Shown piece by piece: positions 33,126 to 44,113 of a stretch of DNA of 64,000 bases; positions within the stretch are counted from its first letter, which is position 1, and each line of letters starts with the position of its first letter. Below the pieces are notes generated by a model. The model saw nothing but the letters and a program-made list of their open reading frames with translations. It ran no database searches and had not been told where the DNA came from. The stretch comes from Palleronia pontilimi. Its GTDB lineage: Bacteria; Pseudomonadota; Alphaproteobacteria; Rhodobacterales; Rhodobacteraceae. A program made the position numbers and the translations under genes. Location of the stretch: positions 124,001 through 188,000 of the forward strand of contig NZ_JAEKPD010000010.1 in the NCBI RefSeq assembly GCF_016412875.1. Reading direction: 5' to 3'.

Positions 33126-33734
33126 ATGGCTGAATCGCTGCACGAACTCGGCGAACATCTGAAGACGGCGCGCTCGGACTGTGTCCTGGGCTACGACGTG
33201 GCGTTCGGCGAGCTGACGGTGAACGTCGCGCTGTCGTCCCTTGTGTCGATGGTCGAGTTCCTGAAGACCGACCGCAACTGCCAGTTCACCACGCTGATCG
33301 ACATCACGGCCGTGGACCACCCGGCGCGCGAGGCGCGCTTCGACTTGGTGTACCACTTCCTGTCGATGTACCAGAACCACCGCATCCGCCTGAAGGCCGA
33401 GGTGCGCGAGGACGAGATGGCACCGTCGATCACCGCCGTCCATCCCAGTGCCAACTGGTTCGAGCGCGAGATCTTCGACATGTTCGGGGTGCTTTTCTCG
33501 GGTCACCCGGACCTGCGACGCCTGCTGACCGATTACGGCTTTCGCGGGCACCCCCTGCGCAAGGATTTCCCGACCACGGGGTACACCGAAGTGCGGTATG
33601 ACGAGGTCACGAAGCGCGTGATATACGAGCCCGTGTCGTTGGTGCAGGAATACCGCCAGTTCGACTTCATGAGCCCCTGGGAAGGGGCCGACTACGTGTT
33701 GCCGGGCGACGAGAAGACGAAAGCGCAGGGCTGA
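33126..33734 (+). CDS. nuoC: NADH-quinone oxidoreductase subunit C
   Basis: 30-kDa peripheral-arm subunit, 202 residues, separate from NuoD. The family signature [37 protein letters not shown] is present at about 115-155. The C terminus ends four bases before the sulfotransferase start, not before nuoD as in most operons. The TGACCC following its stop is repeated after the sulfotransferase stop. Confidence 0.97.
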
Positions 33735-33738
33735 CCCG

Positions 33739-34608
33739 ATGGCACCGGTTCTGATGTTCTGCGTGGGGGCGACCAAGGCGGGGACCAGCTGGCTTCACGA
33801 GCAGCTTGCGGCCCATCCGGACTGCCACCTGCGCAGCATCAAGGAATTGCATTTCTTCGACACGATGGACGAGGATCGCCGCACGAAGGAGATCGCGCAG
33901 GTCACGAGGTCGCGCGACGACCTGATCGCGCGGCGCGGCAAGGTCTCGGCGGACCGGTGGGGAAGTTTCGACACGCGCATCGCCGACCGTGATGACTGGA
34001 TCGCGACGCTGCGGGACGGCGGATCCGATGCGTATCTGGACTACCTTCGGGACGGGCAGGGCAAGGCCAAGGTGATCGGCGACGTGACGCCCGCCTACGC
34101 GCTTATGCCGGTCGAGCGGTTGGCGCAGATGGCGCGACTTCTGCCGGATACCCGCTTCGTGTACCTGCTGCGCGACCCCGTTGCCCGGCTCTGGAGCCAC
34201 GTTCGCATGATCGCCAAGCGCCGCGCGGCGCCCGATCCGGCCACGCCCGACCGGGCCGCGCGCATCCTCAAGCGGACGTTCCGCGGCGACGAGACCGAGA
34301 TCGCCATTCGCGGCGACTACGCGGGCGCGCTGCGGCGGCTCGACGCGGCGGTGGATCCCAAGCGTCTGCTGGTGATGTTCTACGAAGAGCTGTTCGGCGG
34401 CGATGGTCTGACACGGCTCTGCGCCTTCCTTGGCATCGCGCCGCGCAAGGGCGACACGGGCACCCGCGTGCACGCCGGCACACCCATGAAGATGACGGAC
34501 GAGCAGCGCGACATGGCGCGCACGTGGCTCGCTCCGCAATACGATTGTATCCGCGACCGGTTCGGGACACTTCCCGACGCTTGGTCCGCAAATATGGTGA
34601 GGGTCTGA
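33739..34608 (+). CDS. Sulfotransferase family protein inserted between nuoC and nuoD
   Basis: Probable PAPS-dependent sulfotransferase of 289 residues. The 5'-phosphosulfate loop is GATKAGTSWLHEQLAAHP at about 8-25; the 3'-phosphate motif is FVYLLRDPVARLWSHVRMI at about 140; an HFF segment (KELHFFDT) near residue 40 and GDVTPAYA are also typical. There is no signal peptide or membrane helix, so it is cytoplasmic. It begins four bases after nuoC and ends three bases before nuoD, so it is read in the nuo transcript. Base composition looks like its neighbours. No acceptor substrate can be inferred. Confidence 0.88.
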   Translation: MAPVLMFCVGATKAGTSWLHEQLAAHPDCHLRSIKELHFFDTMDEDRRTKEIAQVTRSRDDLIARRGKVSADRWGSFDTRIADRDDWIATLRDGGSDAYLDYLRDGQGKAKVIGDVTPAYALMPVERLAQMARLLPDTRFVYLLRDPVARLWSHVRMIAKRRAAPDPATPDRAARILKRTFRGDETEIAIRGDYAGALRRLDAAVDPKRLLVMFYEELFGGDGLTRLCAFLGIAPRKGDTGTRVHAGTPMKMTDEQRDMARTWLAPQYDCIRDRFGTLPDAWSANMVRV

Positions 34609-34611
34609 CCC

Positions 34612-35826
34612 ATGATGGATGGCACGAAGTTTGACGACGCCCTGACGGGCGAACAGAAGATCCGCAATTTCAACATCAACTTTGGCCCGCAACACCCTGC
34701 GGCGCATGGTGTTTTGCGTCTGGTCCTCGAGCTGGACGGCGAGATCGTGGAGCGGTGCGACCCGCATATCGGCCTTCTGCATCGCGGCACCGAAAAGCTG
34801 ATGGAAAGCCGCACCTACCTGCAAAACCTGCCCTATCTGGACCGTCTGGACTACGTGGCGCCGATGAACCAGGAGCACGCCTGGTGCCTTGCCATCGAGC
34901 GGCTGACCGGTACCGAAGTGCCGCGCCGCGCGTCGCTGATCCGAGTGCTGTATTCGGAAATCGGCCGGATCCTGAGCCACCTGCTGAACGTCACGACGCA
35001 GGCGATGGATGTGGGCGCGCTGACCCCGCCGCTGTGGGGTTTCGAGGAGCGCGAGAAGCTGATGGTGTTCTATGAGCGGGCCTGCGGCGCGCGCCTTCAC
35101 GCCGCCTATTTCCGCCCCGGCGGCGTCCACCAGGACCTGCCGCCGCAGCTGATCGAAGACATCGACGCCTGGTGCGACCCGTTCCTGAAGGTGCTGGACG
35201 ATATCGACGGTCTGCTGACCGAAAACCGCATCTTCAAGCAGCGCAATGCCGATATCGGCGTCGTGAACGAGCAGGAAATCCAGGACTGGGGCTTTTCGGG
35301 CGTGATGGTGCGCGGCTCGGGGCTAGCGTGGGATCTGCGCCGCGCGCAGTCCTATGAATGCTACGACGAATTCGATTTCCAGATCCCCATCGGCAAGAAC
35401 GGTGATTGCTACGACCGCTACCTGGTCCGAATGGCCGAGATGCGCGAATCGATCAAGATCATCCGCCAGGCCTGCGAAAAACTGCGCAACGAGCCGGGCG
35501 ACGTCATGGCGCGCGGCAAGATGGCCCCGCCCACGCGTGGCGACATGAAGACGTCGATGGAAGCGCTGATCCACCATTTCAAGCTTTACACCGAAGGCTT
35601 CCACGTCCCTGCGGGCGAGACCTATGCCTGCGTCGAGGCGCCGAAGGGCGAGTTCGGCGTGTACCTGGTGGCCGACGGCACCAACAAGCCCTACCGCGCC
35701 AAGCTGCGTGCTCCGGGCTACCTGCACCTGCAGGCGATGGACCACATGGCGAAGGGACACCAGCTGGCGGACGTTGCCGCCATCATCGGCACGCTTGACG
35801 TGGTGTTCGGAGAAATCGACCGGTGA
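34612..35826 (+). CDS. nuoD: NADH-quinone oxidoreductase subunit D
   Basis: 49-kDa subunit that forms the quinone-binding pocket with NuoB; 404 residues, full length. Opens with [28 protein letters not shown], containing the His of the quinone headgroup loop, and has [18 protein letters not shown] and [18 protein letters not shown]. Two ATGs in tandem (34612, 34615). The stop overlaps the GTG of the next small gene (GTGA). Confidence 0.97.
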
Positions 35827-36302
35827 GACCAGCCCTTGTCCTGATCCTGTGCGCGCTGCCGGTCCCGGTCTTGGCCGAGCAGACCGAAGTGGCGCTTTAC
35901 ACGGTGCTGGCGCGGCAGGGCTGCAGTGTCGGCCCGCACGAGGTCGCCGACACTTTCGCACCCGAAGGATTCACGCCGGAATTCGTGCGCGACACTCTGA
36001 CGGGCCTGCTGATCGACGGCACCGCGACCGAAGACGCGGTCGGCCGTCTCAGCGTGCCGCCCTCTCTCTGCCCGCCCGACACGGCGGCCGCGACGCCGAA
36101 ACAGCAGTTCCTGGGCGAATTCGCCGCAAACGACTGCGCGTTGCATGCCAGCGATCTCGATGCGGTGATGGGCCGCCTGGGCCTGAGCCGCGCCCAGTTG
36201 CAGGCCATCGCGACGCCGCTTTACGACGCGGGCGCGATCGAGGTCCGTGGCCGCCGGGCGACCTTGTCAGACACGCTTTGCGGCGCCGCCGCGACCAATT
36301 GA
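35823..36302 (+). CDS. Small exported protein of unknown function in the nuo operon (nuoD-nuoE)
   Basis: 159 residues with GTG start overlapping the nuoD stop. An N-terminal signal peptide ([17 protein letters not shown]) predicts export. The mature part is helical and has four Cys residues (GCS, LCP, DCAL, LCG) that could form two disulfides. The two halves look alike: [19 protein letters not shown] and [18 protein letters not shown] are each followed by a helix and a short LSD/LSV strand, so it may be an internal duplication of a winged-helix-like unit. No known domain recognised. Position implies co-expression with complex I. Confidence 0.8.
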
Positions 36303-36318
36303 GCCGATAGGATAACCG

Positions 36319-37632
36319 ATGCTACGCCGTCTTCATCCCGACCAGCCCGACAGCTTTGCCTTCACGCCCGCCAACCTGGAGTGGGCCGAGGCGCAGATGA
36401 CCAAGTATCCCGAAGGCCGCCAGGCCAGCGCGGTGATACCGCTTCTGTGGCGCGCGCAGGAGCAGGAAGGTTGGCTAAGCCGCCCGGCCATCGAGGAAGT
36501 GGGCCGGATGCTGGACATGGCCTATATCCGGGTGCTGGAGGTGGCGACGTTCTACTTCATGTTCCAGCTGCAACCCGTTGGAAGCGTTGCGCATATCCAG
36601 GTCTGCGGCACCACGTCCTGCATGATCTGCGGCGCCGAGGACCTGATCGCGGTCTGCAAGAACAAGATCGCGCCGCGGGCGCACCAGCTTAGCGACGACG
36701 GCAAGTTCTCGTGGGAAGAGGTCGAATGCCTGGGCGCCTGCGCCAACGCGCCCATGGCCCAGATCGGCAAGGACTACTACGAGGATCTGACGGCCGACAA
36801 TTTCGCCGCGCTCATCGACCGCATGGCGGCGGGCGAGGTGCCGACGCCGGGGTCGCAACAGGGCCGTTTCGCGTCCGAGCCTGCGCCGGGGCTGACGTCG
36901 CTGGGTGGGGACGCCGATCACGACAGCAATGCCAGCGTGACGCTGGCCACCGAGCTCGGCGATACGATCAAGCGGATTGACGGGACCGAAGTGCCCCTAC
37001 TGACGCCATGGCGCGACACGGTGCAGGCCGGTGCGACGCAACCGCCCGAAAGCCGCGACGACCTTCTGGGCCCCAAAGGCGGCATTGACAGCCCCACGCC
37101 GGGCGCCAAGCCCGCGGCGAATACGCCCGTCACCGACAAGAGCTTGACCAAGCAGGAAACCGACGAGGTCAACAAGGCGCGCCCGGAGGAGGGTAGCGTC
37201 ATCGACGCCCCCGAAAAGGCCGATCGCAACATCCACGAAGCAGGCGCAACGGCAACCGCCATGGGCAGCGCGCGCGAGCGCACGGGCGCGGGCACCGGCC
37301 CCCTGGATGCCGACGCGTCCGCCGACAACGACGCCGCCGCGAACGTGGCCGAGGGCGACGAAACCCGGCCCGCCGCGCTGGACGGCCCGCGCGAGGGGCA
37401 AGCCGACGACCTCAAGGACATCAAGGGTGTCGGGCCCAAGCTGGAAGCGCTTCTGCACGAGATGGGCTTTTACCATTTCGACCAGATCGCGAGCTGGACT
37501 CCGCGCGAAATCGCCTGGGTCGATCGCAACCTGGAAGGCTTCAAGGGCCGTGTCCTGCGCGACGATTGGGTTGGTCAAGCCCGCATTTTGGCGCGGGATG
37601 GGGAGACAGACCCGACTTCGCGCGCTAAATAA
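36319..37632 (+). CDS. nuoE: NADH-quinone oxidoreductase subunit E with long C-terminal extension
   Basis: 24-kDa subunit with the [2Fe-2S] cluster N1a. The thioredoxin-like core (about 1-185) has the ligands [10 protein letters not shown] and [10 protein letters not shown]. The 437-residue protein is more than twice the usual length: a low-complexity Pro/Ala/Asp/Glu linker (about 185-350) leads to a helix-hairpin-helix domain (about 355-430, [20 protein letters not shown] through GFKGR and RDDW). This domain matches the C terminus of the next gene at about 75% identity (47 of 63 aligned residues, counted by hand). Confidence 0.95.
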
Positions 37633-37681
37633 TCTTCCAGGGGGTCGAAAAATGGCCCGTTTGGACAGGGATTAGGTGATT

Positions 37682-38524
37682 ATGACCAAGCAAACTCAGG
37701 GTTCGATGGTAATTGTCGGCGCGATCGCCGGCGCGATCGGCTTCGTCGCGGCCGTGGCGCTGTCGGTTCTGGGCGGCTTCAATCTGTCGCCCGCAATCTT
37801 CCTGGCGGTCCTCGTCGCGGCCGTCGCCGCAGTGTTCTTGTTCCTTGGGTTCCACAAGGGCGCGGACACCGGCAGCCCCGACGCGGACAGCCTGCGTCCC
37901 AGCGCGGACGGCAAGCTTGGCGATCGCACGGTGCCCGCCGGAAGCGCGGGGGTCGAGCCCGGATCGGCCGGGGTCGAGCCGGGCAGCGCAGGCAAGGTCA
38001 AGACGGGCACGCTTTTGGAGGGCGAGCAGGAATTGGCGGCCCGCAAGGGATCCTGGCGCTACGAACCCGCGGGCGACAAGGCCGGAGAGGTCGCCAACGT
38101 CGAGAACGCCAACGCCACCGACAACAGCAAGCTTCCGGGCGCTGAAACCTCATCCGACAGCGGATCGGTGCAGGCGGAAGCGACCGGTGCCGCATCGACT
38201 GGCACGGCGAAGGCGATGGCCGACGATGTGGACCCGCGCGATGTGGGCACCGCGCCCGCCCGCCTGGACGGGCCCCGGGACGGCACCGCGGACGATCTGA
38301 AGAAGATCAAGGGCGTCGGCCCCAAGATGGAAGAAATGCTGCACGGCATGGGCTTTTATCACTACAACCAGATCGCAAGCTGGAATGACCAGGAAGTCGC
38401 CTGGGTCGATGCCAACCTCGAGGGCTTCAAGGGCCGCGTGACCCGCGACGACTGGGTGCCGCAAGCGAAGGTCCTAGCCGAGGGCGGCGAGACGGAATTC
38501 TCGAAGAAAGCCGATCACTCGTGA
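37682..38524 (+). CDS. Membrane-anchored protein with NuoE-like helix-hairpin-helix C terminus
   Basis: 280 residues. Two hydrophobic helices at about 10-55 (IVGAIAGAIGFVAAVALSVL; FLAVLVAAVAAVFLFLGF) are followed by a low-complexity linker with a tandem GSAGVEP repeat and many acidic residues. A C-terminal domain at about 205-275 (ADDLKKIKGVGPKMEEMLHG, GFKGR, RDDW) is nearly the same as the NuoE tail. It resembles the H3TH/flap-endonuclease-like domains also found at the end of some alphaproteobacterial L21 proteins. ATG 37682 preferred over GTG 37676. Function unknown. Confidence 0.83.
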   Translation: MTKQTQGSMVIVGAIAGAIGFVAAVALSVLGGFNLSPAIFLAVLVAAVAAVFLFLGFHKGADTGSPDADSLRPSADGKLGDRTVPAGSAGVEPGSAGVEPGSAGKVKTGTLLEGEQELAARKGSWRYEPAGDKAGEVANVENANATDNSKLPGAETSSDSGSVQAEATGAASTGTAKAMADDVDPRDVGTAPARLDGPRDGTADDLKKIKGVGPKMEEMLHGMGFYHYNQIASWNDQEVAWVDANLEGFKGRVTRDDWVPQAKVLAEGGETEFSKKADHS

Positions 38525-40137: not shown

Positions 40138-40345
40138 GGTCGCCCGCGGTCGGCTTCCTGTCGTTGGGCTTTCCTGCGCGGTAGATCCCGGCGCAGGCTG
40201 CCTTGAGACGCGATCCGCATAGATGGCGGCGCGTCTTTCACCCCGGACAGCAAGAAGTCCCGCACGCCCAAAAGATTGCGAAATCCGCCAGCGCGGGGTA
40301 TCGGCATGGGTGGGCGGACGCTTGCGCGACGAAAGGGTCGATGAT

Positions 40346-40693
40346 TTGAAAAGATTTTTCCCGGTGATGATCTGTCTCGGAGTCCTGACCGGCTGCGGTG
40401 CGTTGCCCGGCGTCGGCCTGTTCTCGCGCGCGGTGCCGGAAGAACCCCTGCCGTTTCGCGCCCAGATTTCGACCACACGCGGCAGCCCGGCGTTCACCGT
40501 CACCACCGTGACCAACGGCGCGCCGCTATCGCAATGGCGCGAGTCGGCGCGCTACCAGGGCACGCGGTTCTGCATGCGCCGCTACGGCTCGTCCGAGATT
40601 ACCTGGGATACCAGCGGCGGCCCGGATGACTGGGTGGTTCGGCCCCTCGATGCACGCACGGCGCTGGTCCGCGGACGCTGCGATCCGCGATAA
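40346..40693 (+). CDS. Small lipoprotein of unknown function in the nuo operon (nuoF-nuoG)
   Basis: 115 residues from TTG 40346 (GAAAGGG about 8 bp upstream); ATG 40367 would still leave a lipobox. Signal peptide KRFFPVMICLGVLTGC with lipidation Cys at about 17. The mature part is short and beta-rich: PAFTVTTVTNGAPLSQW, RYQGTRFCMRRYGSSEITW. I do not recognise the family. It lies in the gap between nuoF and nuoG with two other exported proteins. Confidence 0.7.
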   Translation: MKRFFPVMICLGVLTGCGALPGVGLFSRAVPEEPLPFRAQISTTRGSPAFTVTTVTNGAPLSQWRESARYQGTRFCMRRYGSSEITWDTSGGPDDWVVRPLDARTALVRGRCDPR

Positions 40694-40790: not shown

Positions 40791-41201
40791 ATGTCTCTTT
40801 CGAAGATGCTACCCTTGGCCATGCTGGCATCGGTGCTGTCTCAGCCCGTTTTCGCCCAGCAGGTTCCGCTGGAAAAGAACCAGACCGTGCGCGACGGCTT
40901 CTACGCCATCGGTCTTGCCGACGAGATTCGCAAGAATTGCCCCCAGATATCGCCCCGTTTGGTCCGCGCCTATGCTATGCTGAAGGGACTCGAGAAATAC
41001 GCCCGCGACAATGGCTATACCGAAGCGGACGTGAAGGCGCTCGAGGATAACGACGCCGCCAAGGACGCGTTGCGCGCGGAAGTCCGCGCCGAGCTTGCGT
41101 CTCGTGGGGCGACGGCTGGGAACGCGTCGGGCTATTGCAAGGTCGGGCGCGAGGAAATCGCCCGTGGCACAGCTGCGGGTCGCTTGCTGAAAGGAAGCTG
41201 A
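40791..41201 (+). CDS. Exported protein, DUF5333-type, in the nuo operon
   Basis: 136 residues with a cleavable signal peptide (LSKMLPLAMLASVLSQPVFA). The mature part is helical: LEKNQTVRDGFYAIGLADEIRKNCPQIS, LKGLEKYARDNGYTEADVKALE, and a second Cys in SGYCKVGREEI, so one disulfide is likely. I recognise it as DUF5333, found next to nuoG in Rhodobacterales. GGAG lies nine bases before the ATG. Its stop overlaps the next start (TGATG). Confidence 0.78.
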   Translation: MSLSKMLPLAMLASVLSQPVFAQQVPLEKNQTVRDGFYAIGLADEIRKNCPQISPRLVRAYAMLKGLEKYARDNGYTEADVKALEDNDAAKDALRAEVRAELASRGATAGNASGYCKVGREEIARGTAAGRLLKGS

Positions 41202-41548
41202 TGCGACGCATTCTCGCTGCAATGACACTGGGCTGCCTGCTGGGTCTTCCAGCGGGCGCGCAGGACCGTCGGGTCGACGCCCATCCGCCCGGATACGTGC
41301 CCACGACCGTTCCCGCGACCTGGGAGCTGGTCATCGGCCGCAAGGAACTGTTCGAGTTGCGCGACGGGTTCGACCTGTACGTGTACCCGAACATCGTCAC
41401 CGAAGCCGAAGCGCGCGCGATCTTCGCGGCCAGTGCCGGGCAGTACTGCGTGAACACCTTCAATTCGAAGCGGGTCAAGCTGACCAAGACGGTGCGCCAC
41501 AGCGATCGTCGGCTCGATGCGTGGCGGTTTCGCGGCGTCTGCGACTGA
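41201..41548 (+). CDS. Small exported protein of unknown function before nuoG
   Basis: 115 residues, ATG overlapping the preceding stop (TGATG). Signal peptide RRILAAMTLGCLLGLPAGA, then VPTTVPATWELVIGRKELFELRDGFDLYVYPNIVTEAEARAIF and a paired Cys (QYCVNTF and the C-terminal GVCD). No family recognised. Translationally coupled to the DUF5333 protein, so the two probably act together in the periplasm. A terminator-like hairpin follows. Confidence 0.75.
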   Translation: MRRILAAMTLGCLLGLPAGAQDRRVDAHPPGYVPTTVPATWELVIGRKELFELRDGFDLYVYPNIVTEAEARAIFAASAGQYCVNTFNSKRVKLTKTVRHSDRRLDAWRFRGVCD

Positions 41549-43699: not shown

Positions 43700-44113
43700 A
43701 TGCGGGGTGTCGCGGTCTTGGCGGTTTTGGCGGTGGCAGGGTGCGATCCCTCGGTGAACGACGCGCCGGATATCCCCGAGGTCACGCGCGTGATCCCGCC
43801 CGACGGCGCGGTCTATGAAGGGGTGCAGACCCGGCTGCTGGAAAACGACTTGGTGAACTTCCTGGTGGAAATGCGTGGCGCCCGCGCGCCTGCCGACGTG
43901 GACGCCTATGCGCGCTGCGCGGCGGCGCAATATGCCTTGATCCGGGGCTATGGGTTTGCACGCCATATCCGGACGAATGTGAATGAGAAGGGTGGCATTT
44001 GGCGCGGAGATGCGGTTTACACGGTGTCGCCCGCGTTGCCGCGCGGCAGCCGAAATCTCGACGCCGAAGTCGTCGTGGCGACCTGCCGACAGGACGGGAT
44101 CCCCACGGTATGA
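43700..44113 (+). CDS. Small lipoprotein of unknown function between nuoG and nuoH
   Basis: 137 residues, starting six bases after nuoG. Signal peptide RGVAVLAVLAVAGC with lipidation Cys at about 15. The mature part (VTRVIPPDGAVYEGVQTRLLENDLVNFLVEMRGA) is followed by VDAYARCAAAQYALIRGYGFARHIRTN and a second Cys near the end (VVATCRQDG). Family not recognised by name. Lipidation suggests it sits at a membrane surface on the periplasmic side, where complex I has no core subunits. Confidence 0.77.
   Translation: MRGVAVLAVLAVAGCDPSVNDAPDIPEVTRVIPPDGAVYEGVQTRLLENDLVNFLVEMRGARAPADVDAYARCAAAQYALIRGYGFARHIRTNVNEKGGIWRGDAVYTVSPALPRGSRNLDAEVVVATCRQDGIPTV

Follow-up and report, generated by a model that had tools for sequence, protein, structure and literature searches.

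In Paracoccus denitrificans and Rhodobacter capsulatus, the nuo/nqo operons contain unidentified reading frames. The operon described here, from Palleronia pontilimi, belongs to the same bacterial group and likewise has extra genes between its nuo genes. It differs in that a named enzyme family lies at the nuoC-nuoD junction, and in that the presence and loss of this gene have been counted among relatives. The gene is found near the middle of the stretch of DNA that was analyzed (64,000 nucleotides, hereafter referred to as the window) and encodes a sulfotransferase.

Among proteins of known structure, the closest counterpart of the window protein is 3RNL from Alicyclobacillus acidocaldarius (PF13469), which resembles it in fold (Foldseek E 1e-9, TM 0.66 by query length) and shares both PAPS motifs as well as a KExHxF stretch, but is only 21% identical. 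The heparan sulfate 3-O-sulfotransferases (1T8T, 6XL8 and 3UAN) reach TM 0.56-0.62 by query length with the same order of motifs; they differ in that the window's enzyme is bacterial and 17-20% identical to these three. Over all 3-O-sulfotransferase entries the identity is 14-20%, and phmmer matches are at E 0.0013-0.0097 only. The tyrosylprotein sulfotransferases (3AP1, 5WRJ and 5WRI among them) have the superfamily fold in common with the window protein, with 15-19% identity and TM values of 0.42-0.50 by query length, i.e. below those of the heparan sulfate enzymes. In the portions of the open-licence literature that were accessible (PMC8115037, PMC4859585, PMC12361115 and PMC9696053 among it), no description of a sulfotransferase at nuoC-nuoD was found, which is a weak absence.

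The sulfotransferase gene between nuoC and nuoD

The features of the junction in the window are as follows:

33126-33734, + strand: nuoC (PF00329, E 5e-46)
33727-33737, + strand: upstream copy of the putative flanking repeat, formed by the last codons of nuoC (..AQG stop) and the 3 nt that follow (from the sequence; same end in L031 and L032)
33739-34608, + strand: sulfotransferase, Sulfotransfer_3 (PF13469), 289 aa (Pfam, motifs, AlphaFold model)
33766-33795, + strand: 5'-phosphosulfate loop GATKAGTSWL, residues 10-19, intact
33841-33861, + strand: KELHFFD motif, residues 35-41, containing E36 (from the alignment)
34171-34200, + strand: 3'-phosphate motif RDPVARLWSH, residues 145-154, intact
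34599-34611, + strand: downstream copy of the putative repeat, formed by the end of the sulfotransferase (RV stop) overlapping an SD-like GAGGG before nuoD (from the sequence)
34612-35826, + strand: nuoD (PF00346, E 1e-117)

The first-pass annotation had placed a PAPS-type sulfotransferase with both of its phosphate motifs intact exactly between nuoC and nuoD, and the coordinates, the translation and the predicted fold all bear this out. The frame is intact and lies 4 nt from the end of nuoC and 3 nt from the start of nuoD. Its GC content (0.675) and GC3 (0.855) are like those of the neighbouring genes, and the host genome (3.72 Mb in 64 contigs) has one further, weaker match to Sulfotransfer_1. 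Pfam assigns the protein to Sulfotransfer_3 (PF13469; 66.9 bits against a curated cut-off of 27, E 4e-18) and to Sulfotransfer_1 (PF00685; 32.4 bits against a curated cut-off of 22, E 8e-8); no NCBIfam model was found for it.

Residue conservation was counted over 46 aligned junction sulfotransferases, which include that of the window and leave out the truncated gene of L133. In the 5' loop, G10 and W18 are present in all 46, K13 and T16 in 45, and G15 in 44. In the 3' motif, R145, D146, P147, R150 and S153 are invariant, while L151 and W152 are kept in 42 and 43 of the 46, respectively. E36, retained in 45 of 46, aligns with the Glu within EPHFFD in heparan sulfate 3-O-sulfotransferase 3A1 and is presumably the catalytic base. 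The AlphaFold model made from the alignment of junction proteins has a mean pLDDT of 95 and a pTM of 0.92. Searched against the PDB by Foldseek, it gives 40 matches at E ≤ 0.001, every one a sulfotransferase or sulfotransferase domain, with the bacterial 3RNL ranked best and mainly heparan sulfate and tyrosylprotein sulfotransferases behind it. APS kinase, which is needed for PAPS, is encoded in the window's genome and in 118 of the 121 genomes searched (78/80 and 40/41, one by a weak match only); it was considered as a marker of sulfotransferase use and set aside as near-universal and hence not discriminating.

Concerning expression, the end of the sulfotransferase lies within -4 to +4 nt of the nuoD start at 36 of 46 loci, and its start within -4 to +8 nt after nuoC at 25 of 46. 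Genes at this junction are thus usually close enough for translational coupling to be possible, and the tight spacing suggests expression together with the nuo genes. A scan for the sigma-70 pattern found no promoter-like site around the sulfotransferase, which says little given that 0.7 are expected by chance, and the one terminator-like site lies inside nuoC (33473-33489), with 2.2 expected by chance in the region.

The gene had been thought to be flanked by a short direct repeat left by the insertion of a cassette. The strings themselves, AGGGCTGACCC at 33727-33737 and AGGGTCTGACCC at 34600-34611, are both present in the window. What does not hold is their reading as an insertion scar. A mobile cassette would leave a flanking duplication that is absent from empty sites; the two closest relatives lacking the sulfotransferase, L031 and L032, have the identical nuoC end CAGGGCTGAC, which is the upstream copy. 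At 28 of 126 loci, a count that keeps five duplicates, nuoC ends in AKG or AQG, and an SD-like motif precedes nuoD at 41 of 46 loci with the sulfotransferase and at 66 of 74 without it. Flank likeness as high as that of the window occurs in 0.6% of 20,000 pairs of 30-mers drawn at random from the window and in 9 of 2162 (0.4%) mismatched flank pairs from other loci. Over the 47 sulfotransferase junctions, matched and mismatched flanks have mean scores of 5.21 and 5.23, respectively (permutation p 0.55). The annotation had stated that the insertion model would fail if the repeat were absent in close relatives, and the other 46 loci all fall below the flank score that the window's alone attains. 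As a feature that was picked out after reading, the repeat is only weakly unusual, and the likeness is best read as a chance one between two purine-rich gene ends.

Distribution, phylogeny and selection

An initial search of 60 genomes, that of the window included, found 20 that match the sulfotransferase at E ≤ 0.001. Among the better matches, the gene lies between nuoC and nuoD in G032, G008, G023, G016, G026, G033, G011 and G006, adjoins nuoD in G034, and is not between the two genes in G018, G025 and G024. Within the genus, all 14 genomes have nuoC; the junction sulfotransferase is intact in 4 (the window's genome, G000, together with G006, G008 and G011), broken in 1 (G009) and missing from the junction in 9.

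Of the 394 genomes of the family, 377 yielded a nuoC. Of the 121 family genomes sampled at the junction, 47 carry the sulfotransferase there (one of them, L133, truncated) and 74 have no working copy, in a sample that leans to similar nuoC, since it was made up of 28 new loci among the matches listed by nuoC likeness and of 80 further regions. Three of the 121 are known only through the sulfotransferase search; when they are excluded, the count becomes 44 of 118. A total of 125 genomes were examined at nuoC, and L051, L055, L065 and L082 were left out as nuoD was out of reach; a sulfotransferase is present in three of these (L055, L065 and L082), and their exclusion therefore lowers the count. 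L009 is not a nuo locus, the duplicates L008, L033, L034, L035 and L044 were not counted, and L037 was set by hand as having no working copy. The presence of the gene at the junction is plainly beyond chance. The annotation had held that its novelty would fall if nearly all relatives carried the gene at this place with no role in respiration; the gene is indeed widespread here, but 47 of 121 is short of nearly all.

In a profile search of the 394 family genomes, a sulfotransferase of this kind occurs anywhere in the genome in 242 (E ≤ 0.001). A search of GTDB with the alignment of 46 junction proteins gave 544 confirmed relatives; among the best 80 of these, 78 lie between nuoC and nuoD, one lies beside nuoD at a contig end and one (Donghicola) is elsewhere. 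The genera represented in these 80 include Oceaniglobus, Tranquillimonas, Rhodovulum, Celeribacter, Pseudorhodobacter, Nioella, Pacificibacter and Boseongicola. Among 289 genomes drawn from the class, matches at E ≤ 1e-30 were found in 7, of which 4 do not belong to the family; no nuo gene was found near these 4, or near the family gene L304, within loci of 3-4 kb.

Some loci depart from the usual arrangement. In L265 and L277, the sulfotransferase is immediately upstream of nuoC, not downstream. L082 (G220) has nuoC together with a sulfotransferase frame that contains a stop, and no nuoD was seen in the 19 kb fetched. Two sulfotransferases in tandem lie between nuoC and nuoD in L292-L296, L122 and L191; L293 and L292 are the refetched loci L055 and L065 of genomes G411 and G348.

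A quick tree was built from 174 sulfotransferases, which remained from 228 hits of enough coverage after near-identical ones were removed. They comprise 139 junction rows (placed between nuoC and nuoD or, where the locus is cut and contains one of these genes, no more than 2.5 kb from it), 3 at other places near the operon and 32 elsewhere. In this tree 55 of 171 inner branches are well supported, and some branches are long. The window protein falls in a clade of 121 rows (SH-aLRT 98), 119 of them at the junction. This one clade thus has 119 of the 139 junction rows and 2 outsiders only, a clustering that is favoured by the thin sampling of the 32 non-junction rows, which were mostly chosen by likeness to junction ones. 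The junction sulfotransferases are not monophyletic, as at least 9 label changes are needed, compared with a shuffled mean of 33. A second group of 12 rows (SH-aLRT 94) comprises 11 junction genes and 1 just before nuoC, and includes those of G006 and G011; the same site in congeners is therefore occupied by two sulfotransferase groups, G000 and G008 having one and G006 and G011 the other. In the tandem loci L122, L191, L292 and L296, the second-group copy is next to nuoC and the main-clade copy next to nuoD, a constant order that suits an old pair in place with differential loss; the tandem loci L293, L294 and L295 have another make-up. In a further group of the tree, junction and non-junction genes are mixed, and therefore replacement occurs too.

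Within the main clade, sulfotransferase distances agree in part with those of nuoC and nuoD. The Mantel r over 110 loci is 0.37 (p 0.0005, 2000 permutations), and 39 of the 110 loci have the same nearest neighbour as in nuoC+nuoD, where 1.0 is expected and 5 is the maximum in 500 shuffles. The sulfotransferase protein distances are 5.4 times those of nuoC/nuoD (median, main clade). On the nuoC+nuoD tree, presence of the gene changes at least 25 times, 10 of these being forced by well supported branches; the shuffled mean is 37, and none of 500 shuffles is as low. Because the Mantel correlation is modest and so many changes in presence are needed, the gene has probably also been exchanged among members of the family by recombination. 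The rows nearest to the window sulfotransferase are Tranquillimonas-, Kandeliimicrobium- and Oceaniglobus-like genes. Transfer of the window gene from a distant genus was considered and not adopted, as a constraint joining the G000 and G008 genes is not rejected (71 rows, p-AU 0.64); a common origin within the genus is thus possible.

In the 14 closest pairs, which have loci in common and do not include that of the window, dN/dS of the sulfotransferase is 0.09-0.24. This is above most nuoC/nuoD values yet well under 1, and dS in these pairs is mostly within about twofold of that of nuoC/nuoD. The low ratios in close pairs indicate that the family is kept by purifying selection. Decay in place is also seen, with a broken copy in the congener L037 and a fragment in L057. 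A possible tail of a lost copy before nuoD stands out in L084 alone of 49 loci (p about 0.002, uncorrected for the 49 loci and against a null that itself contains real tails).

Origin and role of the junction gene

We propose that the gene encodes a soluble PAPS-dependent O-sulfotransferase and that it has long been an optional cargo of the nuoC-nuoD junction in the Rhodobacteraceae sensu lato, an account that we regard as probable with the following history and mode of expression. The gene would have settled in the junction early in the family and would have been inherited there in good part together with nuoC and nuoD while diverging fast, so that one early gain would be followed by many losses, with repeated breakage, doubling or replacement by other genes. 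It would most likely be transcribed and translated from the nuo message, with steady expression in growing cells, and the enzyme, if active, would most likely act on a substrate outside complex I, such as a surface glycan, a lipid or a small molecule. A substrate other than complex I is suggested by the patchy presence of the gene, its fast divergence and its replacement by unrelated genes.

This account has to be weighed against several others. The cassette insertion proposed in the annotation, i.e. a recent event in this organism that left a short target duplication at the junction, can draw on the existence of two strings of 11-12 nt in the window and on a likeness that is nominally at the 0.4-0.6% level, but it is refuted in substance by the comparison with relatives, and we give it hardly any credence: the upstream string is the nuoC end also seen in L031 and L032, which lack the gene, matched flanks show no excess of likeness over mismatched ones across 47 loci, the GC and GC3 of the gene are like those of its neighbours, and the gene is widespread at the site (47 of 121 genomes). 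A better case can be made for the junction as a hot spot into which sulfotransferase genes from elsewhere moved on many independent occasions, with no single resident lineage. The 25 or more changes in presence on the nuoCD tree would fit such a history, as would the several sulfotransferase groups at the junction, one of which mixes junction and non-junction genes, the 9 or more label changes, and the genes just before nuoC in L265 and L277. We still consider it unlikely, since 119 of the 139 junction rows are in one clade with 2 outsiders only, the agreement with nuoCD distances exceeds every permutation, the four tandem loci with two groups in constant order fit an old pair with differential loss, and decayed copies are found in place.

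As for function, a link between sulfation and complex I had been suggested, and it finds no support here, as nuoC and nuoD are present with or without the sulfotransferase. A subunit or accessory factor would be expected wherever the complex is; at the junction the gene occurs in 47 of the 121 genomes with nuoC and nuoD, copies elsewhere being possible. A direct service to complex I or the respiratory chain, in which the enzyme would modify, for instance, a subunit, a quinone-related lipid or an assembly partner and would owe its place in the operon to this role, is in keeping with the near exclusiveness of the main clade to the junction and with the tight spacing. It is nevertheless disfavoured and, in our judgment, very unlikely: 74 of the 121 genomes with nuoC and nuoD have no working junction copy, 9 of the 14 congeners lack one and another has a broken one, unrelated genes (GFA, lumazine-binding-like and thioesterase-like) fill the slot elsewhere, and protein distances exceed those of nuoC/nuoD about fivefold. 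It is conceivable, if rather doubtful, that fast-evolving accessory factors (among them the sulfotransferase and a two-helix protein) have a dedicated slot at the nuoC-nuoD junction of Rhodobacteraceae, from which they adjust the respiratory membrane to local conditions; gaining or losing a gene there would then be an adaptive switch attached to complex I expression, and the sulfotransferase would sulfate a membrane lipid or some other constituent of the energy-coupling membrane.

Seen as a cargo gene, the sulfotransferase no longer appears as a fresh insertion in a single genome that couples sulfation to respiration, but as part of a family-wide pattern, in which one operon junction retains a fast-evolving enzyme family through many losses and replacements. 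The genus, having intact, broken, alternative and no copies, offers a natural comparison for the function of the sulfotransferase, and the same comparison asks whether operon cargo matters for complex I.

Other genes at the nuo junctions

The gap between nuoC and nuoD ranges from -4 nt (17 of 121 genomes) up to 1995 nt. In 38 of the 121 genomes, 24 of which seeded its profile, the junction contains a small two-helix protein (mostly 57-70 aa) with two hydrophobic stretches, ..PMLKLLPHFGINKYWA..LLWIMAMKLQE.. (L127, L072 and L141 among others). In 13 of the 38 its neighbour is a sulfotransferase, and in 1 (L037) it is the broken copy. When 149 family genomes were searched, 34 matched; among the 30 loci listed, 29 are between nuoC and nuoD, and the thirtieth adjoins nuoC at a contig end. 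Likeness to it was also seen elsewhere in the nuo operon of L145 (6312-6596), and it was not found in the window's genome. Two members were scanned against family collections: neither belongs to an NCBIfam family, and in Pfam one has no match and the other only a match to Wzy_C under the cut-off. The two-helix protein thus seems tied to the nuoC-nuoD junction. Other junction genes named by Pfam are GFA-like (PF04828), lumazine-binding-like (PF12893) and thioesterase-like (PF22636).

Gaps longer than 150 nt are found at C-D in 60 of 80 loci, at D-E in 52 of 80, at E-F in 79 of 79, at F-G in 77 of 78, at G-H in 71 of 77 and at I-J in 68 of 76. By the same measure, the tight junctions are A-B (1/72), K-L (1/72) and L-M (2/67); B-C, H-I and J-K are intermediate, and the figures for M-N are unreliable.

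In the window, nuoE (36319-37632) has a long C-terminal extension with a helix-hairpin-helix-like stretch. NCBIfam PRK12373 extends over nearly all of nuoE, and the C-terminal part of this model has a match in the next frame, 37676-38524, too. Further small frames lie between nuo genes at 35823-36302, 40223-40693, 40791-41201, 41213-41548 and 43700-44113, among which only that at 40791-41201 exceeds a family cut-off (DUF5333).
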